DNA from: an uncultured Nitrospiraceae bacterium
GTDB lineage: Bacteria > Nitrospirota > Thermodesulfovibrionia > Thermodesulfovibrionales > SM23-35
DNA: 64,000 bases
Assembly: GCA_937138415.1 (NCBI GenBank)
Contig: CAKZPA010000044.1
Coordinates: 62,001 to 126,000 of the forward strand
Direction of reading: 5' to 3'
Positions 38,204-49,619 of the stretch are shown here, one piece after another. Positions within the stretch are counted from its first letter, which is position 1, and the number at the start of each line of letters is the position of its first letter. The notes beneath the pieces are model-generated. The model was given only the letters and a program-made list of their open reading frames with translations. It was not told where the DNA came from and did not search any database. Position numbers and translations under genes: made by a program.

Positions 38204-39427
38204 CTATGTGCGGATGACGTCGATCGGCTGGATGCGAACGGCTTTCTGCGACGGATAGATGCCGGCGAGAATGCCGACGGTGACGCTCGCGAGGAACGAG
38301 AGCGCGTGTCCGAACGGCGAAATGGTGAAGGGGAGGTGCACGAGCCAGAAGATGAGGACCGTGGCGAGGCTGCTCAGGAGCACGCCGATGGTGCCGCCGC
38401 TGAACGAAATGAACGACGCCTCGAGGAGAAACTGAAGGACGATATCCTTCTTCCGCGAACCGACCGCCCGCCGGATACCGATCTCGAGCCTTCTCTCGTT
38501 CACGATGAGGATCATGATCGAGAGAATCCCGAGACCTCCGATAAGGAAAGAGACGGTGGCGGAAATCCGCCCGAGGAGTGTGATCATCGAGACGGCCTGC
38601 GTTTTCAATGCCATGACATCCTTCAGGTCGATCACGGTGAAGTCGTCGTTCTGGCCGGGGCGGATCTTGTGTCGAGTCCGAAGGATATTTTCGATCTGCT
38701 CCTTCGTTGCCGCTAAAACCTGCGCGTCGCTCACCTGCACCGAGATCACATTGATGTACTCCTTGTTCACGAACCGCTTGAGGTAGGTATTAAGCGGGAT
38801 GAAAATCTGGTTGTCCTGATCCACCCCCGATATGTCGACGCCTTTTTCCTGCATGATGCCGATTACCTGGCACGGCACGCGCCAGATGAGGATGTATTTA
38901 CCGATAGGGTTTTCTCGCCCGAAAAGCCGCTCCGCGACCTTCGTGCCGAGGACGGCCACCTTGCCGAGGGTTCGGTCGTCCTCATCGGACAAGAAACGGC
39001 CTTCGCCGACCGGGAAATTTCTGATTCGCGAGTAATTCGGCGTAACACCGGCGACGAGAACCGCCTTCAATACGGTATTCTCGTACCGGATGGGGAAGAA
39101 CGTATTCCCCGAAGGCGACACATCGGTCACGAACTGCGACCCATCCCGAATCGCCCGGGCATCACCCACCGTGAGCGTCGTCGCCTCGCTCAGGAGACGG
39201 GTGCCGGTGCCGACTCTCCTCACGATTCCGCTCCTCACGATGAGGAGGTTTTTTCCGAAACTCTCAGCCTCCCGTTCGGTTTTGATCGTGAGCGCCTTGG
39301 AGACGTTCGACACGACGATGAGGGAAAAAGTTCCGAGAAGGACACCGAGAATGGCGAGGATGGATCTGACCTTGAAGTTCATCAGCGAGCGGACGGCGAT
39401 CCGAAGATTCAGGATGATCCTTTTCAT
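38204..39427 (-). CDS. MacB-type ABC transporter permease (second)
   Basis: 407 aa. One N-terminal TM helix (SILAILGVLLGTFSLIVVSNV), a periplasmic MacB-PCD-like domain of about 220 residues, and three C-terminal TM helices with the FtsX-type signature LIVNERRLEIGIRRAVGSRKKDIVLQFLLEA (seen in parts). End: PSQKAVRIQPIDVIRT. Last gene of the efflux operon, 58 nt after the first permease gene. Having a second, similar-sized permease suggests a heterodimeric transporter. Confidence 0.9.
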   Translation of the reverse strand: MKRIILNLRIAVRSLMNFKVRSILAILGVLLGTFSLIVVSNVSKALTIKTEREAESFGKNLLIVRSGIVRRVGTGTRLLSEATTLTVGDARAIRDGSQFVTDVSPSGNTFFPIRYENTVLKAVLVAGVTPNYSRIRNFPVGEGRFLSDEDDRTLGKVAVLGTKVAERLFGRENPIGKYILIWRVPCQVIGIMQEKGVDISGVDQDNQIFIPLNTYLKRFVNKEYINVISVQVSDAQVLAATKEQIENILRTRHKIRPGQNDDFTVIDLKDVMALKTQAVSMITLLGRISATVSFLIGGLGILSIMILIVNERRLEIGIRRAVGSRKKDIVLQFLLEASFISFSGGTIGVLLSSLATVLIFWLVHLPFTISPFGHALSFLASVTVGILAGIYPSQKAVRIQPIDVIRT

Positions 39428-39485
39428 GTGTCCGTAAAATACGAAACTGGCGCGTGTGCGGTCTGGATGCTATTCGCGTATGGCA

Positions 39486-40709
39486 TCACCCTTTGATCGC
39501 TTCGATGGGTTTGAGGTTCGCGGCTCTGTTCGCCGGCTGGAGGCCGAAGCCGATGCCGACTGCCCATGAGAGGACCATGCCGACCACGAACGCTTTAGAA
39601 GAAAAGTGGATCGGAAACTCGGCGACCGACGTGAGGAGTTTCGAGGAAGCGAACGCAAGCGCGAATCCCGCGAGACCGCCGAGTGTCGTGATGAGGACGG
39701 ACTCACCGAGGAACTGGAACATGATGTCTCGTCTCTTGGCGCCCGCCGCGCGGCGGATCCCTATTTCCTGCGTCCTCTCCCTCACGGAGAGGAGAAAGAG
39801 GTTCGCGATCACGAACCCCGCGACGACGAGGGCGATGACCCCCGTAATGCCGAGGAAAGCGACGAGAGAACCCGTGAGCGCAACGAGAAACTTCGTAATT
39901 TCGCGCGGCGACACGGTCGTGAAGTCGTCCGGCTCTTCCGTCGGGAGTTTATGCCGTGCACGGAGAAAGGTTCGCAGCTCCTCGACGTGCGCGTAGAGGT
40001 TTTCTCGATCGAGAAAACGTATCCTCATCGCCGACACGTACGTCGTTTCGTTCTGGAGTTTTCTCATGATCGTCGAGATGGGAATGATGACGCGGTCATC
40101 GAGGCGCTCACCCGTGGGGGTCGTGCCTCTCTCGGAGAGTACCCCGACGATCTTGACGGGGATCCGCTTGATGAGGATCGTTTTACCAACGGGATCTTCG
40201 TCGCCGAACAGCTCCGAGGCGAGAAACTGCCCTATGAGACCCACATTGCGCAGACCCCTCACGTCGTCGTCCGTGAAGTCCGATCCCTGGACGACAGGCC
40301 ATGTCCAGACGCGGCTGTAGTCGCTCGTCGATCCGATGACGAGCGACTGGTATTTCCTGTTTCTGTAAGAGACAGGGACGTCTCTCATCGCCGTCATCGG
40401 GACGACGAGGTACGCGGTCGAGAAGGCGTCCCTGACCGCGTCGATGTCGTCGAGCGTGATCGTTTTCTGACGGCGACCCGTCGCGCGTGCTTCTTCCCCT
40501 CCGCCAAAGACGAGGAGGGAATCGGGGCCGAACCGGGCGACGATTTCGAACGCTTTCTGGTACGCCCCTTCCGTCGCCGCGACGATGAGGGTGATCGAGG
40601 CGATGCCGAAGGCGACGCTGACGAGACAGAAGACGGTCCTCAGCGTGTAGGAGCGGACAGCTTTCGCGGATTGGGAGAGAATTCTGAGAAACCGGCCCGC
40701 GTCACTCAC
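39486..40709 (-). CDS. MacB-type ABC transporter permease (first)
   Basis: 407 aa, same architecture: N-terminal TM (TVFCLVSVAFGIASITLIVAA), large periplasmic domain, three C-terminal TMs with FLLSVRERTQEIGIRRAAGAKRRDIMFQFLGES and closing PANRAANLKPIEAIKG. Clearly related to, but diverged from, the adjacent permease. Starts inside the end of the ATPase gene (ATGA-type overlap at 40706-40709). No ATPase domain is fused, unlike E. coli MacB. Confidence 0.92.
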   Translation of the reverse strand: MSDAGRFLRILSQSAKAVRSYTLRTVFCLVSVAFGIASITLIVAATEGAYQKAFEIVARFGPDSLLVFGGGEEARATGRRQKTITLDDIDAVRDAFSTAYLVVPMTAMRDVPVSYRNRKYQSLVIGSTSDYSRVWTWPVVQGSDFTDDDVRGLRNVGLIGQFLASELFGDEDPVGKTILIKRIPVKIVGVLSERGTTPTGERLDDRVIIPISTIMRKLQNETTYVSAMRIRFLDRENLYAHVEELRTFLRARHKLPTEEPDDFTTVSPREITKFLVALTGSLVAFLGITGVIALVVAGFVIANLFLLSVRERTQEIGIRRAAGAKRRDIMFQFLGESVLITTLGGLAGFALAFASSKLLTSVAEFPIHFSSKAFVVGMVLSWAVGIGFGLQPANRAANLKPIEAIKG

Positions 40710-41371
40710 ACGATAACGCCGTCTTTCATCGTGACGATCCTGTTCGCGTACTTCGCGACATTCGGGTCATGGGTGATGAGGATGATCGTTTTTCCCCGGT
40801 CGTGCATCTGAACGAGGAGATCCATGATTTCCCCGGCGGTCTTGCTGTCGAGCTGGCCCGTCGGCTCGTCGGTGAGGATAATGTCGGGGTCATTGATGAG
40901 GGCCCGCGCGATCGCGACTCGCTGCTGTTCCCCCCCCGAGAGCTGGCTCGGCTTGAATTTCGTGCGTTCCCGGAGCCCCACGATCGCGAGCAGGTCGTGC
41001 GCCCTCTTCACGAAATCGTCTTTCGATTTTTCGACGTAGAGCGATGGGAGGAGCACATTTTCGAGGACGGTCGCATAAGGGAGAAGGTAGAAGTTCTGGA
41101 AGACGAATCCGATGTGCTCGTTCCTGATGACGGAGAGTTCATCGTCGGAAAGGCGTGACACTTCCCTGTCCGCGAGAATGTACCGTCCGGACGTGGGCAC
41201 GTCGAGGCAGCCGATGATATTGACGAGGGTTGTCTTGCCGGAACCCGAGGCCCCCATGATCGCGATGAACTCTCCCCGTTCGACGAGGAGATTGACGCCC
41301 CTGAGGACCATCACGTCGATATCTCCCATTCTGTACGTTTTCTTGATGTCCTCGAGGATACAGATCGGCAT
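40706..41371 (-). CDS. ABC transporter ATP-binding protein (MacB/LolD type)
   Basis: 221 aa. Walker [19 protein letters not shown]-loop [18 protein letters not shown], signature [15 protein letters not shown], Walker [15 protein letters not shown]-loop [13 protein letters not shown]. It powers the two adjacent permeases in a tripartite MacAB-TolC-like export system. The 15-nt gap to the adaptor gene indicates one operon. Confidence 0.95.
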
Positions 41372-41386
41372 GGGAAAGATCCGGGA

Positions 41387-42574
41387 CTACTGAGATTCGG
41401 GCTTCGAGGAGACGGGGAGGACGAGTTTCGTGGCGAGCACGTCACCCTCGGAGAGCCCGGAGACGATTTCGGTCATATCCTCACCCCTGATTCCCGTCTT
41501 CACGTCGACCTTTTCGACCTTGTTCGGTCCCACGACCCGGTACGCGACCTGCTTCCCTAATTCGAACTTTATCGCGGCATTCGGCGCAACGAGGATATTC
41601 TCCTTCCGGTCCGTGATGATCTTGATGTGCGTCGTCATCTCGGGCCTGAGGAAGGCGCTGTCTTCTTTCGAGACGCGAACGATGGCGAGATAGTACACGA
41701 TGTTCTCCTTCACGACCGGTTGCGGATAGATTTTCTCGATGGAGCCGTGGAACACCTTGTCCGTGAACGTATCGACCGTGTATTCGACCGGCTGCCCCAC
41801 ACGGACGTTCCCGATATCCGTTTCGTCGACGTATATCCACATTTCGAGGAGCGTCGGATCGAGCACCGTCACGAGATTTGCAACTTGGAGTCCCGCGACG
41901 ATCGTTTCCCCTTCCTGAGCCGTCACGTCGGCGACGATCCCGTCAATGGGGGAAAAAATCTTCGTGTAGGTGAGCTTCGTTTCCTGCTGCCTGAGCTGGG
42001 CCGATATGTCCTCGATGTGCGCTTTCGCGATCGCGAGCTGCGTTTCGTATTCGCTCCGGAGTCTTTTCAGGATGGCATCGGTCGCGTCGTACTGGCTCCT
42101 CGCGCGGTCAACGGCATCCTGCGTCGTGAATTCACGTTTCAGGAGTTCGGTTTCCCGTTCGTAGGTGCGTTTTGCGTAGTCCACGTTCGCGGCAGCTTCC
42201 CTGATCCGCTCCGGATACGTGAGTTCGATCTGCGCGAGGGTATTCCGCGCCGCGGTGAGGGACGCCCGCTGCTGTTCGATCGCCCGTTGGATCTCACGGT
42301 CGTCGATGAGCGCGATGAGCTGCCCGCTCTTCACTCTGTCGCCTATCTTGACGTTCATCTTGGTGATCGTCCCCGTTGCGCGCGCACCGATCTTGACGAC
42401 GGCGCCGACTTGCGGCTTGATGATTCCCGTTTGGACGATAATGCCCCGAATATCGCCTTTAGCGACGCGGGCCGTATCGAGGACCTTCGTCGCCGGTTTC
42501 GTGAGGGCTCTGGCGGCGATCAATCCTGCAACGAGGATGGCGATGCCGATGCCGATGACGATCAGTTTTTTCAT
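41387..42574 (-). CDS. Periplasmic adaptor protein (HlyD/MacA family)
   Basis: 395 aa. N-terminal membrane anchor (IVIGIGIAILVAGLIAARAL) without lipobox, lipoyl half-motifs (VVKIGARATGTITKMNVKIGDRVKSGQLIALID in parts and FSPIDGIVADVTAQEGETIVAG), between them a long alpha-helical hairpin (about 75-190), then beta-barrel and membrane-proximal domains. Connects the ABC permeases to the outer-membrane TolC-like channel. The ATG overlaps the stop of the TolC-family gene. Confidence 0.94.
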   Translation of the reverse strand: MKKLIVIGIGIAILVAGLIAARALTKPATKVLDTARVAKGDIRGIIVQTGIIKPQVGAVVKIGARATGTITKMNVKIGDRVKSGQLIALIDDREIQRAIEQQRASLTAARNTLAQIELTYPERIREAAANVDYAKRTYERETELLKREFTTQDAVDRARSQYDATDAILKRLRSEYETQLAIAKAHIEDISAQLRQQETKLTYTKIFSPIDGIVADVTAQEGETIVAGLQVANLVTVLDPTLLEMWIYVDETDIGNVRVGQPVEYTVDTFTDKVFHGSIEKIYPQPVVKENIVYYLAIVRVSKEDSAFLRPEMTTHIKIITDRKENILVAPNAAIKFELGKQVAYRVVGPNKVEKVDVKTGIRGEDMTEIVSGLSEGDVLATKLVLPVSSKPESQ

Positions 42575-43851
42575 CGGTCAGGGACGGGGGGTTCGCATGT
42601 CCTCATTCCGGTGACCCGTTCGAGAACCGCTTTGGAGAGCATCACGCCGAGTTTCGAGCGTACGAGCTGTTCCCGGGAAGCGGCGAGGAAGCTTTCAGCC
42701 TGGATGAGCGCGAGAATGTCTCCCTTTCCCACTTTGTACTCACCGAACGCCTGCGAATAGTTGTGCTCTGCCTGCTGAAGTTGCGTTCTCGCGACCTCGA
42801 GTTCCTTCTGAGCGGTCGCCATGTCTTCGTACGCCTTCCTGACGTCGAGCGAAACGGCCCTCTTCAACTCGTTCAGTGTTTCGACGGATGCGTTTTTCTG
42901 GAACTCCGTCGCGCGATACGTATAAAATTTCCCGAGTTCGAAGATGTTCCAGACGGCCCTCACGGTCGCCGTCTTCTCCTCCCGCGCAAGGGATCTGCTG
43001 ACATCGCCGTCGATGGTGCTGTACGACGCGTCGGCAGAAAACGAGGGGAGGAATGTGCTGCGGATGATGGAAGCGGACTGCTCCTCGATGCGGATCGCGT
43101 ATTCCACTCTCTTTACTTCGGGCCGCTCGAGCGAACGTTGCACGAGCGTTTCGAAATCGGGAAGGGCCGCCACCGGTTCGACGATGGTACCGGTGTCATG
43201 ATCCGTCTCGAGCGGGGACCCGATGAGGGAGTTCAGCTCCGACAGGGCTTTCTTCAAGTCTCCCTGAGCCTGGACAAGGTGAAACCGCGCCTGCTCCAAT
43301 CTCACCGATGCCTGGAGCACATCGGAGAGCCGTGCGACGCCGAACTGATAGCGTCCCGCGGCGACCTCGTGATCCTTTTCCGCGTCCGCGAGCTGAATCG
43401 TTCGCTGCTCGACCGCTTCCTTGTACGCCTGAACGGTGTAGAAAGCGGACTTGACGGCGTACTCGAGATCGAGGAGGGTTTCCTCCACGTCCGCTCCGCT
43501 GCTGTCGAGGTTGAGCCGGGCTATATTTCTCTGCGCCTTTCTTTTCCCCCAATCGAAGAGGGTGTAGCTCAAGGTGAGATCCGCTGTCTGGAACCTCGAC
43601 TCGTCACCCGAAGTGAAAGACCGCCCCTGTGAAAAACTCGCATCGAGCGACGGGAGGTAGGGAGAGAGAGAGGCGCGATAGAGGGCCTCCGAGGCTCTCT
43701 GCTTTTCCAGAGAAGCGCGGTACGAAGGGAGGTTCCGCTTTGCGAGCGAGATCGCCTCGTCGAGCGTGAGTCCGTGCGAAATGACGGATGCAAAAATGAC
43801 GGAGAAAAAAGTCATAATCGGCAGAAATCTGAGAAAAAATGATGCGCTCAT
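42571..43851 (-). CDS. TolC-family outer-membrane efflux protein
   Basis: 426 aa from ATG 43851 with a signal peptide (FFLRFLPIMTFFSVIFASVISHG) followed by LTLDEAISLAKRNLPSYRAS, the standard start of the outer-membrane efflux protein family, and two alpha-helical-barrel repeats (long heptad regions near 130-230 and 330-420). A further ATG at 43893 is in frame but lies at the predicted transcription start. First gene of the five-gene efflux operon. Confidence 0.92.
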   Translation of the reverse strand: MSASFFLRFLPIMTFFSVIFASVISHGLTLDEAISLAKRNLPSYRASLEKQRASEALYRASLSPYLPSLDASFSQGRSFTSGDESRFQTADLTLSYTLFDWGKRKAQRNIARLNLDSSGADVEETLLDLEYAVKSAFYTVQAYKEAVEQRTIQLADAEKDHEVAAGRYQFGVARLSDVLQASVRLEQARFHLVQAQGDLKKALSELNSLIGSPLETDHDTGTIVEPVAALPDFETLVQRSLERPEVKRVEYAIRIEEQSASIIRSTFLPSFSADASYSTIDGDVSRSLAREEKTATVRAVWNIFELGKFYTYRATEFQKNASVETLNELKRAVSLDVRKAYEDMATAQKELEVARTQLQQAEHNYSQAFGEYKVGKGDILALIQAESFLAASREQLVRSKLGVMLSKAVLERVTGMRTCEPPVPDR

Positions 43852-43901
43852 CGTGTATCGTACCTGCCGTTTTTTTAAAAATTGCTTGTGCATTTTTAAA
43901 T

Positions 43902-44165: not shown

Positions 44166-45803
44166 TCACATTCCTGAGCACGGATCCGTCGCAGGGGGAT
44201 CCGACTGCAGACCTTCGTGAATTGAGGAGAGGAGAACCCCGTCGTCGGTGTCGCCGCTCATTTCCCAGAACATCATTCCTCCGAGTTTGTGATACGTAAC
44301 GTAGCGCGCTTTGAACGCCAGTGAACGCGGTTCATCGAACGTCCAGAACGTCCGGGTGGCACCGTCGTAGAGCCATGCGGCCCGGGCGCGGTCGTCCCAG
44401 TAGGGGATGTACCCGTTCGACATGTTTTGCTCTAAATCCCTGTATAACTCGTATCCATTCTCATAGGTACCCGGAGCCCCGCCACCTTTCCTCTGATACA
44501 GACCGTTTTGGGCGCTCTCCACGCCGGTCCAGCCTCGCGCATAGAAGGCGGCGCCAACGAGTATCTTCTCGGCCGGTACCCTGTACCGATCCCGATAGAG
44601 TTTCACCGTTTGATCGACCGACAACGACCATTCGGGATACCCGGGATCCCCCGGTGAGGGGCAGAGATTCGTGTGATGGCCGGTGGTGCCGCTCCAGTCG
44701 CCGTAGAAATCGTATGACATGAGCAGAACGTAGTCGAGATAAGGGTGATTGTCGCTCAACCGATAGTTGTCGGCATACTGTTCGCCGGCGGGCACCGCCG
44801 CGGTCAGGAGGAGATCTTCCCTGCCGATCGCCTTGAACTGCCGGCGGAATTCGGCGACCAAAAGGCCGAAATTCGTTGCGTCATCGATCGAGTGGCGTAT
44901 TCCCTCGTGTCCTCCCGACACAGGGAACTCCCAGTCAAGGTCGAATCCGTCGAAAATGCCGGCTGCAACCGCGTGGCCACCCGCATTGCTCTGCTGTGGA
45001 AGGTTGCCTCGTACGTAGGTGTCGATGCAGGATGTTACGAATGCACTGCGGGTTGCATCCGTCGATGCAGCATCCGAGAAATATGTGGAGCCAAGCCAGC
45101 CACCGATCGAAACGACGATTTTCAGATGTGGATACATCCTCTTGAGTTTCCTGAGCTGGTTGAAGTGTCCCCTCAATGGCTGGCGTGGGTCGTCCGCGAT
45201 TCCGTCGACGCTCTCTTGCGCCGAGTACGGTCTCTGGAAAGCGCTCCATGGGTCGTCGAGCTGGCACGTCACGACCCCTTTCGAATCGGGCTTGGGGATC
45301 GCGAATGCGTAATTGAGGACGGCTAACTTCTCCGCCGATCCGCTCGCCACGACATTTTTGACAAGATATGGCGGCTGTCGATAGATTCCCCACTCGGGGA
45401 AGTATCCCACGATGCGAAGATTGCCCTCGCCGGAGGCATCGGTGGAGGGGTCGCACGTTTGTCTGAAGACCGCTCTCGCTTTCACCCGAGAATGTTTCCG
45501 GCTGGTGCGAAAGGTGACGGGATTCGCCGTTCCGGATACATTGCCCTCCCAATGGTCGAATTCATAGCATGGGTTCGGAACGGCCCTTATGAGGAGAGTG
45601 CGACTTCTCGCGTATCCGAGCGGGGAGACCTCTACTGAGCCGGCGAGGTCGGGAATGGCTTCCGTGACAATGGCGCCGGTGCCTGCCGACGCGGTGCTGC
45701 TCAGAGGCGTTGCCATGAGAGACACTAGGATAAATAAGCAGGCGAAAAAACGCAGCGCATAGCGCTCTCTTGTTCCTGCCCTTGCCGTAAAGTCCCCCAT
45801 CAC
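44166..45803 (-). CDS. Secreted GH18 chitinase-like glycosidase
   Basis: 545 aa. Signal peptide (LRFFACLFILVSLMATPLSSTASA), an N-terminal beta-sandwich-like module of about 80 residues ending with FDHWEGNVSGTANPVTF (Gly-rich, divergent InlB-B-repeat-like), then a full GH18 barrel: RIVGYFPEWGIYRQPPY, KIVVSIGGWLGS, the catalytic FDGFDLDWEF (DxxDxDxE complete), YVLLMSYDFYGDWS and GGMMFWEMSGDTDDG. It should hydrolyse chitin or other beta-1,4-GlcNAc polymers outside the cytoplasm. The start is GTG/ATG at 45803-45800. Located next to a processive GT2 synthase, it may trim a self-made polymer rather than feed on chitin. Confidence 0.92.
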   Translation of the reverse strand: MMGDFTARAGTRERYALRFFACLFILVSLMATPLSSTASAGTGAIVTEAIPDLAGSVEVSPLGYARSRTLLIRAVPNPCYEFDHWEGNVSGTANPVTFRTSRKHSRVKARAVFRQTCDPSTDASGEGNLRIVGYFPEWGIYRQPPYLVKNVVASGSAEKLAVLNYAFAIPKPDSKGVVTCQLDDPWSAFQRPYSAQESVDGIADDPRQPLRGHFNQLRKLKRMYPHLKIVVSIGGWLGSTYFSDAASTDATRSAFVTSCIDTYVRGNLPQQSNAGGHAVAAGIFDGFDLDWEFPVSGGHEGIRHSIDDATNFGLLVAEFRRQFKAIGREDLLLTAAVPAGEQYADNYRLSDNHPYLDYVLLMSYDFYGDWSGTTGHHTNLCPSPGDPGYPEWSLSVDQTVKLYRDRYRVPAEKILVGAAFYARGWTGVESAQNGLYQRKGGGAPGTYENGYELYRDLEQNMSNGYIPYWDDRARAAWLYDGATRTFWTFDEPRSLAFKARYVTYHKLGGMMFWEMSGDTDDGVLLSSIHEGLQSDPPATDPCSGM

Positions 45804-46169
45804 GCTCGCGTGCTGTTCTCCTTGCTCAATCTCTGGCGGTCCGCGTTTGTCGGATCTGTGGTAAGTCTATGGAAACAGCGGCGAGAGCAATGTGTCGGAA
45901 ATCACAGAAGGCGAGGCTTTGCGTGAAACTCTCGCCCGGCGACGGAACGATTACCGTGCGGGACGCGATCGAGAATCGATACCCATCGATGAAGATGCGT
46001 GTCGGGGCCTGCCAAGGAGGAGAGGCGTTGTTGTGGCGATCGTCAGAGGTGCTTCGTTAGGGAAACCGGATCGGTGTCGTCGTTATGGGTGGATAGGCGG
46101 GGCGGTCGAAGCCTCGGCTCTCTTACAGAACGGGTGAAAACCGCAGCGTTTCGAAGGGCACGGTCCGGG
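45804..46169. other. Gene-free region upstream of chitinase
   Basis: 366 nt between the GT2 stop and the chitinase start, both minus strand. AAGGAGA lies about 13 nt before the chitinase start. GGCGAGAG and CTCTCGCC, 8-bp complementary arms, enclose about 45 nt (45886-45940), so the chitinase leader may fold. No clear promoter; the short plus-strand ORFs look spurious. Confidence 0.45.
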
Positions 46170-47240
46170 TCAATGCCCTTTTTCCCAGACCATCAAACGG
46201 TCCCTGACGATCCATTCTTTCCAGAGGGCTTTCCAGAACAGGTAGAAGTTAAACGGTCTGATCACGAAGAATGCCCATATGGACAAGAGGGTTTCCCTGA
46301 GCATTCCAATCCTGAGACCGGTGACGGAACAGATCAGGACGATAATGAACAGCTCGATCAAGAGAGCTCCGAGGAGCACCGACAATAAATGGGGCGTAAA
46401 GGCATAGACCGCGAATGCGAGGAGCGGCGCCGAGACGCTGTCGAGCAGGTACCCGTAAATAAACCCCGCCAGTTTCACATTCTTGCGCAGCCGATGGACG
46501 GAGATATTTTGGAAGAAGCTCCGATACCACCGCTCGACCTGGGCCTTGAATATCGCGAACGTTGGGGGATCCAAAGGATAACAGTACGCGTCCGGACAAT
46601 AGTGCACGTGGTAGCCGTGAATGAGGAATTCCCAGGTCAGATCCATGTCTTCCGCCATAGTCCTCGCTTTGAATCCGCCCATCTCCTTCAGGTGTCGCAT
46701 TCTGAACACGGAGAAGCAGCCGGACGACACGAGTATCGCGCCCGCGTTCATTTGCGCGGATTTAAAGACCGATAACCCGAACATGTACTCGATGAACCGT
46801 CCCCGCTCCCACAGGGTTTTGATTCTCTGCGGGATGACGAATCCGCAGACCGATGCCGTGCGCTCGTCATTGAAATAGGGGAGCGTTTTCAGGATGGCAT
46901 CTCGGTGCAGTACCGTATCGGCATCGATGGTGACCATCAGATCCGTGTCGATTCCGTCGAGGACATAGTTTTGCGCTGACGCCTTGGTCCCCTGGTTCCT
47001 GTGCGTGCGGACGACCGTCACGCCCTCGGCGGCGGCGAGCTCACCGGTCCGGTCGGTCGAACAATCGTCCACGACGATGATGCGATCGATCGCGACGGAT
47101 TGGTTCTTGACGCTTCTGATCGTGCTCACGATGGTTTTTTCCTCGTTGTAAGCCGGGATAACGACGGTAATGGAGTAGTGCCTATGTGGAGGTTGCGCGA
47201 GCACTTTCGGTTTGAGGCCAAAGAGCCATCGCCAGTTCAT
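46170..47240 (-). CDS. Processive family 2 glycosyltransferase (polysaccharide synthase type)
   Basis: 356 aa from ATG 47240 (AAGGAGAGACC upstream); the longer frame to 47468 is antisense noise. Catalytic features: VVIPAYNEEKTIVSTIRSV, VVDDCSTDRT, TIDADTV (DxD), SGCFSVFRM, MAEDMDLTWEF (acceptor Asp) and QVERWYRSF (QxxRW), the set of processive beta-glycosyltransferases such as PgaC/IcaA, hyaluronan and chitin synthases. Three or four C-terminal TM helices follow. It probably makes and extrudes a beta-linked polymer; GlcNAc is suggested only by the nearby GH18 gene. It overlaps the upstream gene by 4 nt. Confidence 0.9.
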   Translation of the reverse strand: MNWRWLFGLKPKVLAQPPHRHYSITVVIPAYNEEKTIVSTIRSVKNQSVAIDRIIVVDDCSTDRTGELAAAEGVTVVRTHRNQGTKASAQNYVLDGIDTDLMVTIDADTVLHRDAILKTLPYFNDERTASVCGFVIPQRIKTLWERGRFIEYMFGLSVFKSAQMNAGAILVSSGCFSVFRMRHLKEMGGFKARTMAEDMDLTWEFLIHGYHVHYCPDAYCYPLDPPTFAIFKAQVERWYRSFFQNISVHRLRKNVKLAGFIYGYLLDSVSAPLLAFAVYAFTPHLLSVLLGALLIELFIIVLICSVTGLRIGMLRETLLSIWAFFVIRPFNFYLFWKALWKEWIVRDRLMVWEKGH

Positions 47241-47866
47241 GGTCTCTCCTTTTTCACGAGAGACTTCACTCTGTTCAGGTAATCCGTGGGTATTTTCCTC
47301 CCCGCCTGCTTCCAGGCGTCGAGTCTCGTCGGCCCGTAGTGGTAGGCGGTGATGGCGGTATCCACGGATTTGTACCGATGGACCAGGTCCAGGAAATACA
47401 GGTAGGCGAATTGGATGTTCGCGGTTTCGGAGTTCAGGACCTCGTCCGTGCCGGCGATATCTTTGCACGTCGGAAGTCTCTCGAGCACGTCCTGCAATGC
47501 CATTTCGGTCAATCCGGTCGGCCCGTACGACTTGCCGTCGGGATGGACGCCGACGGGCCCTTTGCCGAGGGAGACCATCGCGTCGAAAGACTTCTTCGCT
47601 TCATCGAGGATTGACTTGTCGAGGCTGCTTTCCGCCTTCATGATCGCGTCGAACGCCGGCGGGGATTGTTTCGCGAGTGCGGCCGCGTGGGTATTCGTCT
47701 CCAGTCGCGCGACTTTGCGCCCGATCGCTTCGTCCGGATCGGACCCTTTCATCGTGTTCGTCACGAAAGCGCCGGCGCCGATCAATCCCATGGCAATGAC
47801 GAGTATGGGATACTTGATGAGCGTATGGAGCACTAAACTGCATAACCCTTTCGGTTCAGCGTACAC
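47237..47866 (-). CDS. Membrane-anchored transglycosylase-like (SLT-fold) protein
   Basis: 209 aa from GTG 47866, which is preceded by AGGAGGT at ideal distance. One TM helix (LVLHTLIKYPILVIAMGLIGAGAFV), then a periplasmic part. The C-terminal half has the layout of a lytic transglycosylase: GPTGLTEMALQDVL, NIQFAYLYFLDLVHRYKSVDTAITAYHYGPTRLDAW. The canonical catalytic Glu-Ser pair (ESG) before the GLMQ-like segment is not obvious, so it may be catalytically altered. It may locally open peptidoglycan for polymer export. Five nt after the secreted beta-rich gene. Confidence 0.7.
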   Translation of the reverse strand: MYAEPKGLCSLVLHTLIKYPILVIAMGLIGAGAFVTNTMKGSDPDEAIGRKVARLETNTHAAALAKQSPPAFDAIMKAESSLDKSILDEAKKSFDAMVSLGKGPVGVHPDGKSYGPTGLTEMALQDVLERLPTCKDIAGTDEVLNSETANIQFAYLYFLDLVHRYKSVDTAITAYHYGPTRLDAWKQAGRKIPTDYLNRVKSLVKKERP

Positions 47867-47871
47867 GGTTC

Positions 47872-48330
47872 TTACCTCCTCTTTTTCCAGTCGCCGCCGA
47901 ACGACCACTGGAAGAATGCGACCCCCCTCAGGGTGCTCTTGTCCGATTCATGAAAATAGCCGAAGTATTCCCCGCGGATTCCGATTGCCAGTTCCCCCCA
48001 ATCGTTCACGCTCATGTGAACGGGGTGTTTGAGTTTCAAACCGACCGCGGGCCTTATTCGGTTGTTCCAAAAATCCTCCCGGTGATCCGATACGACCAAC
48101 CCGAGCCCGACAAAGTTGTTCACGATCCACTGCGTGCCGCCCAACCGAGTCCAATCGATGCCCTGTTCGACGTACAGGTCGAGCTTGACGCCTTTCTCGA
48201 TGTCGTTTGAGGTCGAATACGACAGTTCCCCCCACGTCGCCCACGGGTAGCCGAGGATCTCGGCGCCGGACTGCCGGGCGGCGAAACACACACAGATGAC
48301 GGTAAAGATTGCTGCCAGATACTTTTTCAT
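47872..48330 (-). CDS. Secreted beta-rich protein of polysaccharide locus
   Basis: 152 aa from ATG 48330 with GGAGG 6 nt upstream; the frame to 48495 overlaps the promoter and is rejected. Signal peptide (YLAAIFTVICVCFAARQSGA). The mature chain alternates polar and aromatic residues (WGELSYSTSND, KLDLYVEQGIDWTRLG, VGLKLKHPVHMSVNDWGELAIGIRGEYFGYF) in a pattern of beta hairpins and ends with FFQWSFGGDWKK, an aromatic-rich C-terminus typical of small outer-membrane barrels. No family assigned. As the first gene of the synthase operon it may form the outer-membrane exit or a polymer-binding component. Confidence 0.65.
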   Translation of the reverse strand: MKKYLAAIFTVICVCFAARQSGAEILGYPWATWGELSYSTSNDIEKGVKLDLYVEQGIDWTRLGGTQWIVNNFVGLGLVVSDHREDFWNNRIRPAVGLKLKHPVHMSVNDWGELAIGIRGEYFGYFHESDKSTLRGVAFFQWSFGGDWKKRR

Positions 48331-48430
48331 CGAAACCTCCTGTTCGCATGTTTTGAAAGAAAAGGTGCCCCGTTCACTTTCCCAGGTGACGCGCCTTTTC
48401 TCCGTGAGTGCTCGACGGCATCTCATGAGT

Positions 48431-48497
48431 TTTATAGAAAGGATTTTCGGACGCGCGGGCAATACTTGAAAAGGGGTAATCTCCGCAGGATACACCC
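48431..48497 (-). promoter_or_regulatory. Conserved promoter/activator motif, copy 1 (synthase operon)
   Basis: In gene orientation: GGGTGTAT (48497-48490), GAGATTA, AGTATTGCCCGC, CCGAAA (to 48445), then TATAAA (48436-48431) as a -10. The 53 nt at 48445-48497 match 49698-49750 at 40 positions with no gap. It ends about 100 nt before the first gene of the synthase operon and also lies upstream of the divergent LuxR-type gene. Confidence 0.75.
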
Positions 48498-48579
48498 GAA
48501 AGGAGGTGTCCGCTGCCCGTATCGTGGTCGCCGCTGCACTTGAATTTGGGCAGTGGATATGCTATGAAAGAAGGCAGAA

Positions 48580-49236
48580 ATGGACGACACCATCTACCGA
48601 CCGGCGACGATCCCAGCTCCCAACGCATTCCTCATTTATCGTCCGGAGGTGAAGATAACGAAGGAAGTGGTTTTCCAGAATCCGGAGGCGCTCCGTATTC
48701 TCACGTACCCCCCTGCGACCGGAAAAGGGAAAGAAGCGTTTCCGGATATCGTCTCCCTCTGTGCGAAATGGAAAAAACTGCTGAAGGAGAAAGTGGATCA
48801 GGCGGAGACATCGGGACGGTCCGCTCCAGGCGAAAAGAGGTCTTCCCCCGTTTTTCTCGAGATGATCAAGAGCGGACGGCGGAGGTACGTGGTACGCGGG
48901 ATGGTACTCCTCGGACAAAAATCGGAGACGAGCGAGGAGAATTACCTGTTCCTCCTCGACCGCATCAGTCCCGAGAAGATCAACATCCCGTTGATCGCGC
49001 GGCAGTGGCAGTTGAGCCCGAGGGAACGAGACATCGTGCGTCTGCTGCTCGAGGACCGCAGCAACAAGGAGATCGCTCATCTCCTCGAGTTGAGCGTTAA
49101 TACGGTGAAGGCGTATTTAAAGATGCTGATGAGGAAGCTGAAGGTGTCGAGCCGGGCCGGCATCGTGTCCTGCGTCCTCACGAAGCAGCCTGCCCCCCAA
49201 ATTGACGAGGGATCCGCCGCATTCGGGGAGCGATAA
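48580..49236 (+). CDS. LuxR-type (HTH) transcriptional regulator
   Basis: 218 aa. N-terminal sensor-like domain (about 15-130; FLIYRPEVKITKEVVFQNPEALRIL looks PAS-like) and a C-terminal GerE/LuxR helix-turn-helix: WQLSPRERDIVRLLLEDRSNKEIAHLLELSVNTVKAYLKMLMRKLKVSSR (seen in parts), with the recognition-helix pattern SVNTVKAYL. No receiver aspartate is present, so it is not a classical response regulator. It is flanked on both sides by minus-strand genes that carry the same 53-nt upstream motif, making it the obvious candidate regulator. AAGAAGG near the ATG is a weak ribosome-binding site. Confidence 0.85.
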   Translation: MDDTIYRPATIPAPNAFLIYRPEVKITKEVVFQNPEALRILTYPPATGKGKEAFPDIVSLCAKWKKLLKEKVDQAETSGRSAPGEKRSSPVFLEMIKSGRRRYVVRGMVLLGQKSETSEENYLFLLDRISPEKINIPLIARQWQLSPRERDIVRLLLEDRSNKEIAHLLELSVNTVKAYLKMLMRKLKVSSRAGIVSCVLTKQPAPQIDEGSAAFGER

Positions 49237-49295
49237 CCCTCTTCCCTGTGAGGTCGAAAACCGAGTCTTCCGCTCTTTCTCCGCTTGGACGATGG

Positions 49296-49619
49296 TTAGA
49301 CGAGAAACTGCAGGCCGACGTGGTAACGGCGATACCGGACCTTATTCGCCCACTTGATCTGTGCGATGACCGGCAGGGTGACGCTCCGCTCAGGCAGAGG
49401 TATCCTGACCTGTACGATCGAGCCTTCCATCGGCAACATTCCCTCGACGCGAAGTTTTATCCCGCCGTCACTCAGATCGAGCAGCGTCACGCTGCCCGAC
49501 AGTTCTTCCGGATAGCGCCCCGTTTCTCCCATGTCAATGGACGGGATAGGACATTCGTGAGCGATTCTCGTGCTCGACCTCTTCTCACGAAAGTTGGTCG
49601 GAGTCGTTTCTCTCTGCAT
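49296..49619 (-). CDS. PilZ-domain (c-di-GMP-binding) protein
   Basis: 107 aa. REKRSSTRI supplies an RxxxR-like motif and LLDLSDGGIKLRVEG the D/NxSxxG motif, the two signature elements that grip cyclic di-GMP; the remaining VQVRIPLPERSVTLPVIAQIKW and YHVGLQFLV complete the six-stranded barrel. GAGGAGG precedes the ATG. Stand-alone PilZ proteins commonly control polysaccharide synthases. Its promoter motif matches that of the synthase operon. Confidence 0.88.
   Translation of the reverse strand: MQRETTPTNFREKRSSTRIAHECPIPSIDMGETGRYPEELSGSVTLLDLSDGGIKLRVEGMLPMEGSIVQVRIPLPERSVTLPVIAQIKWANKVRYRRYHVGLQFLV

Follow-up and report, generated by a model that had tools for sequence, protein, structure and literature searches.

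A candidate compact exopolysaccharide operon in a Nitrospiraceae bacterium and the small secreted beta protein that it encodes

To our knowledge, the known synthase-dependent exopolysaccharide systems have large outer-membrane porins with TPR domains. The locus described here lies in a window of 64,000 nucleotides (the whole stretch of DNA that was analysed), and raises the question of what could take the place of such a porin beside a membrane glycosyltransferase. All six genes named in the first-pass annotation are present where it placed them, as judged by open reading frames and Pfam. Its claim that the known outer-membrane parts are absent locally also holds, as the same searches found no Pga, Bcs or TPR gene locally around the operon.

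Gene layout and conservation of the locus

The features of the locus are as follows.

44166..45803, minus strand: secreted GH18 glycosidase with an N-terminal Flg_new_2-like domain (Pfam GH18, 1.1e-74)
46170..47240, minus strand: processive family-2 glycosyltransferase (GT2) of 356 aa with C-terminal TM helices (Pfam, AlphaFold, Foldseek, trees)
47237..47866, minus strand: inner-membrane protein with one N-terminal TM helix and a degenerate SLT domain, GTG start (Pfam SLT)
47872..48330, minus strand: small secreted beta-strand protein of 152 aa with a signal peptide, first gene of the operon (sequence, no family match)
48580..49236, plus strand: LuxR-type regulator, divergent from the beta-SLT-GT2 operon (Pfam GerE)
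49296..49619, minus strand: PilZ protein with c-di-GMP-binding motifs, neighbour of the operon (Pfam PilZ)

A Shine-Dalgarno-like site precedes each of the beta, SLT-like and GT2 genes. That of the SLT-like gene overlaps the 3' end of the beta gene, whose stop is separated from the SLT-like start codon by 5 nt, and the SLT-like stop and GT2 start overlap as ATGA. From the overlapping Shine-Dalgarno site and the ATGA junction, beta-SLT-GT2 is therefore a single minus-strand operon. The likely corrected starts are 48330 for beta, 47866 for the SLT-like gene (a GTG codon, chosen from its Shine-Dalgarno site and spacing) and 47240 for GT2. GH18 lies downstream of GT2 after a gap of 366 bp, and is probably transcribed separately. 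The LuxR gene stands between the operon and the PilZ gene, which is back on the minus strand and outside the operon. A promoter scan at the locus found none, and terminator-like sites there were near the level of shuffled sequence. Directly 3' of GH18 (window positions 38204-43893) are genes for TolC, a MacA-like adaptor, an ABC ATPase and two MacB/FtsX-like permeases. This MacAB-TolC set was considered as the polymer exporter and rejected, as it is not seen at the other loci that carry the three-gene operon.

The beta-SLT-GT2 trio is found in 3 of 345 genomes of the phylum: the window genome (G000), G002 (locus L014) and G246 (locus L049), which represent three genera and two families of one order. 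The GT2 identities are 67% (G002) and 57% (G246). The gene neighbourhood is thus kept in relatives for the trio, which therefore passes the test of conservation set in the first-pass annotation. Thirty further members of the family to which G246 belongs lack the trio GT2, and the distribution is therefore patchy. In G285 the GT2 gene, here a more distant one, is paired with beta alone. Of the six genes proposed as one system, the trio stands, with GH18 linked to it, while PilZ and LuxR lie outside the conserved unit. Neither is conserved with the trio, and no LuxR gene is present at L014 or L049. The LuxR/GerE protein (Pfam, 58.7 bits) is nevertheless a plausible candidate regulator of the operon. 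The PilZ protein (Pfam, 38.6 bits) has both motifs of a c-di-GMP receptor (RxxxR as RSSTR, D/NxSxxG as DLSDGG), and PilZ occurs at nine places in the genome, of which this is one; it was rejected as a part of the system for want of conservation with the trio. Apart from this protein, c-di-GMP control is hinted at only in G002, where a GGDEF-EAL gene is directly 3' of GT2 and a PilZ-DUF4388-DnaJ-TPR protein is encoded two genes away. Judged from these motifs and neighbours, control of the machine by c-di-GMP, as first proposed, is plausible, although the window PilZ itself does not travel with the trio.

The synthase and its SLT-like partner

The GT2 (Pfam, 101 bits) carries the motifs DAD, AEDMD and QVERW, corresponding to DxD, ED and QxxRW. 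In an alignment with 17 relatives there are 14 invariant columns, and the processive motifs are invariant or nearly so. Its AlphaFold model (pLDDT 88.6) retrieves hyaluronan synthases as top matches in Foldseek, followed by PcManGT and cellulose synthases. With its motifs, TM channel helices and HAS/BcsA-type fold, the protein is a processive GT2 membrane synthase, and the tree agrees, placing it beside processive families rather than with non-processive enzymes. The presence of the non-polymerising mannosyltransferase PcManGT among the top fold matches would fit a short glycan or glycolipid as the product in place of a secreted polymer. We consider this very unlikely given the QxxRW motif, the HAS/BcsA-type fold with hyaluronan synthases first, and the secreted partners.

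The GT2 falls below the cut-offs of the named synthase families. In NCBIfam it scores highest with PgaC_IcaA (118.7 bits, where the cut-off is 422.3), and it reaches 70.3 bits against 550 for the NodC equivalog and 54.6 bits against 699 for CelA (the BcsA cellulose synthase). In trees built with HasA sequences left out, the trio GT2s sit in a separate clade (100/99 support) with members in many phyla, several of which have been seen only as MAGs. This clade adjoins NodC (98/99, or 90/96 without long branches) and not PgaC/IcaA. The AU test does not reject a placement with PgaC/IcaA (p-AU 0.158). On sequence grounds the clade may thus be nearer to NodC than to PgaC/IcaA, a point that the tree does not settle. 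GT2s of the same clade also occur at L070, L072, L074 and L149-L152 (for example in Cycloclasticus, and in the phylum relatives G200, G207 and G208), where they are followed by a small TM protein that begins with MNVGLPGTGIGG or a similar sequence; the one that was checked, from L070, has no family match.

The second protein of the trio had been described as transglycosylase-like. In the window it matches Pfam SLT at 26.0 bits against a cut-off of 21.3, and has an ES dipeptide where the catalytic Glu could lie, as would be expected of an active lytic transglycosylase that opens peptidoglycan for passage of the polymer. However, the SLT domain is absent from the 131-aa protein of G002, and in G246 the match is sub-threshold (17.6 bits) and confined to the C-terminal half, the N-terminal half having been lost. 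The part kept in relatives is only the N-terminal TM motif CxLVIHLLIKxPIL. Given these losses, a shared enzyme was rejected, and there is probably no working transglycosylase in all members; activity of this kind seems unlikely. A search against PDB gave no match. The pattern of retention suggests instead that the SLT-like protein is a structural partner of the synthase.

GH18, deacetylases and the nature of the polymer

The window GH18 (Pfam, 252 bits) has the sequence DGFDLDWE, which fits the catalytic DxxDxDxE motif of the family. GH18 genes are found in only 3 of 61 relatives. There is a single copy in G000 and a single one in G246, each next to the trio but at opposite ends of it, and the two enzymes are about 25% identical and belong to divergent subfamilies, that of G246 being 52% identical to an enzyme of G007. 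They were therefore probably recruited independently. As GH18 is rare, and yet the sole copy flanks the trio in two of the three trio genomes, with both the side and the subfamily differing between them, there looks to be a functional link, in line with the original claim that GH18 is tied to the synthase. The window was chosen partly for its GH18, and G246 provides the independent test. A chitinase unrelated to the synthase, serving feeding or cell-wall turnover and adjacent by chance, would account for the 366-bp gap in the window, the change of side in G246 and the lack of GH18 at the G002 trio. We regard chance adjacency as improbable, considering how few relatives carry the gene, the position of the sole copy in two genomes with two subfamilies, and the finding that a third GH18, from G007 and of the same type as that of G246, lies close to a deacetylase/TPR locus. 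At that locus (L178:614-7669 and L176:8736-10532), where no GT2 gene is nearby, a PgaB-like protein, a TPR protein of 1,300 aa and a second deacetylase are encoded.

An IcaB-like deacetylase is encoded directly 3' of GT2 in G246, and a polysaccharide deacetylase occupies the equivalent place after GT2 at L075, L068 and L076, the last a contig of an ANME-1 archaeon. The placement of GH18 and the deacetylases therefore favours GlcNAc as the unit, and our best guess is a GlcNAc polymer, possibly beta-1,4-linked. Thus, of the beta-1,4-GlcNAc-like polymer first proposed, the sugar is favoured by GH18, the deacetylases and the NodC-side tree, and the linkage is only possible. The ANME-1 locus (L076:5899-11249) has a GT2 of the same clade followed by the deacetylase, a 215-aa TM protein and a DUF4015/GH-like protein, with no beta protein. 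The 215-aa protein has a weak match to the SLT-like TM motif, and the locus is possibly an archaeal exopolysaccharide locus.

The polymer could alternatively be PNAG-like (beta-1,6-GlcNAc) or another hexosamine, with the GT2 a divergent PgaC/IcaA and GH18 acting like the glycosidase domain of PgaB. The top NCBIfam match to PgaC_IcaA, the IcaB-like character of the G246 deacetylase and the unrejected PgaC/IcaA grouping in the AU test are all consistent with this, but the score is far under the PgaC cut-off and the clade lies beside NodC whether or not long branches are included. A PNAG-like product is therefore conceivable, although rather doubtful.

The beta protein family and a model of the system

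The mature beta module is about 128 aa, which is small for a polymer pore. The protein has no match in Pfam, NCBIfam or PDB, none to the barrel families NfrA_C, BcsS and BcsC, and no sequence signal with E. coli NfrA, BcsC or PgaA. An AlphaFold model of the protein alone, without relatives, has a pLDDT of 35, too low for use, and the strand periodicity of the beta sequence is only weakly above that of shuffled sequences (p 0.03). A profile search found 22 beta loci in 20 genomes of the phylum. Processive GT2s are found within a few genes of beta at 20 of the 22 (16 BcsA and four other GT2s), and the beta gene is often 12-50 bp from BcsA. The two loci with no GT2 beside beta are in G009, where the contig ends close by, and G116. 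BcsG is also present at twelve loci, and tandem two-module beta proteins are found at eight. In G158, a 1,062-aa protein with TPRs followed by two C-terminal beta modules is encoded between bcsZ and bcsG, in the BcsC slot (L063:6587-9775). Among the operons listed, no other unassigned protein of at least 600 aa is encoded beside a beta gene. Searches for the family gave nothing in 349 genomes of the phylum to which Cycloclasticus belongs, in seven genomes carrying related GT2s, or in phages, plasmids and viral contigs.

The BcsA loci vary in content. L055, L057, L051, L052, L056 and L059 have two- or three-gene BcsA-beta(-BcsG) operons that lack BcsC and in most cases BcsB, and that seem to represent a compact type of Bcs not described before. 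BcsA is about 1,000 aa in two of them, longer than in the others (L056:7485-10490 and L059:6540-9581), and one of these has a weak PgaA match. In G054, BcsG is seemingly split into two reading frames, by pseudogene formation or assembly error (L016:9920-11464).

The simplest reading of this company of genes is that beta would be a minimal outer-membrane partner of processive GT2 synthases. At the window locus it probably fills, to judge from sequence, the outer-membrane role of the missing known parts, which went unnoticed in the first-pass annotation. The module is too small for a monomeric pore and BcsG co-occurs at 12 loci, so that beta may instead be a periplasmic or outer-membrane accessory (a scaffold, a lid or a modification partner of BcsG or GT2) that forms no pore. 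This is a serious possibility, short of an even chance, against which stand the BcsA-beta pairs with no BcsG nearby (L055-L057 and L059) and the TPR-beta-beta protein in the BcsC slot. A more specific form of the outer-membrane reading is a new family of half-barrel exporters, in which single modules would dimerise into a pore and tandem proteins would be a covalent pore, one relative carrying it behind TPRs in the BcsC slot; we put this forward as a speculative proposal, more probably wrong than right.

In its way of working the system resembles Pga, Bcs and Nfr, but it falls outside each of them by the tests run. It shares with PgaABCD/IcaADBC a membrane GT2, a small TM partner and, in relatives, an IcaB-like deacetylase and a glycosidase. 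However, no PgaA porin, PgaB or PgaD is encoded beside the synthase in the window neighbourhood, at L014 or at L049, and the tiny beta protein replaces the TPR porin. NodC is the nearest named GT2 clade in the trees, and its GlcNAc chemistry would fit GH18, although NodC is accompanied by neither an exporter beta protein nor an SLT-like protein. The BcsA-type fold and the beta family are shared with the compact BcsA(-BcsG) operons of relatives, but the trio operon lacks BcsB, BcsC and BcsZ, has GH18 instead of GH8, and its GT2 is not BcsA. The N4 glycan receptor NfrA/NfrB likewise combines a GT2 with an outer-membrane export partner (PMC8669472); it differs in that NfrA has TPRs and a large barrel, and NfrB an MshEN c-di-GMP domain. 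The beta family is the undescribed part of the system, and no paper matching it or the beta-SLT-GT2 gene set was found in the literature.

We slightly favour the interpretation of the beta-SLT-GT2 operon as a compact synthase-dependent exopolysaccharide machine, with a GlcNAc polymer, exit through beta and trimming by GH18. In this model, UDP-GlcNAc would be polymerised by GT2, and the beta-linked product, either chitin-like or deacetylated in part, would be pushed out through the TM channel of the enzyme itself. The SLT-like protein may pack its single TM helix against the synthase, as PgaD does, and its periplasmic SLT-fold domain may guide the chain or the cell wall. At the outer membrane the exit would be formed by the beta protein, perhaps as a dimer, and GH18 would trim or clear the polymer, as BcsZ does for cellulose. 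The restriction of the trio to three genomes and the G002 version, with neither GH18 nor the SLT domain, count against this interpretation.

If a module of about 130 residues that accompanies unrelated GT2 synthases is indeed an exporter, such parts can be very small. Production of cellulose and GlcNAc polymers that annotation has missed would then come to light across the phylum, represented here mostly by draft genomes. If the half-barrel proposal is true, one phylum would have a minimal means of export for both cellulose and a chitin-like polymer.
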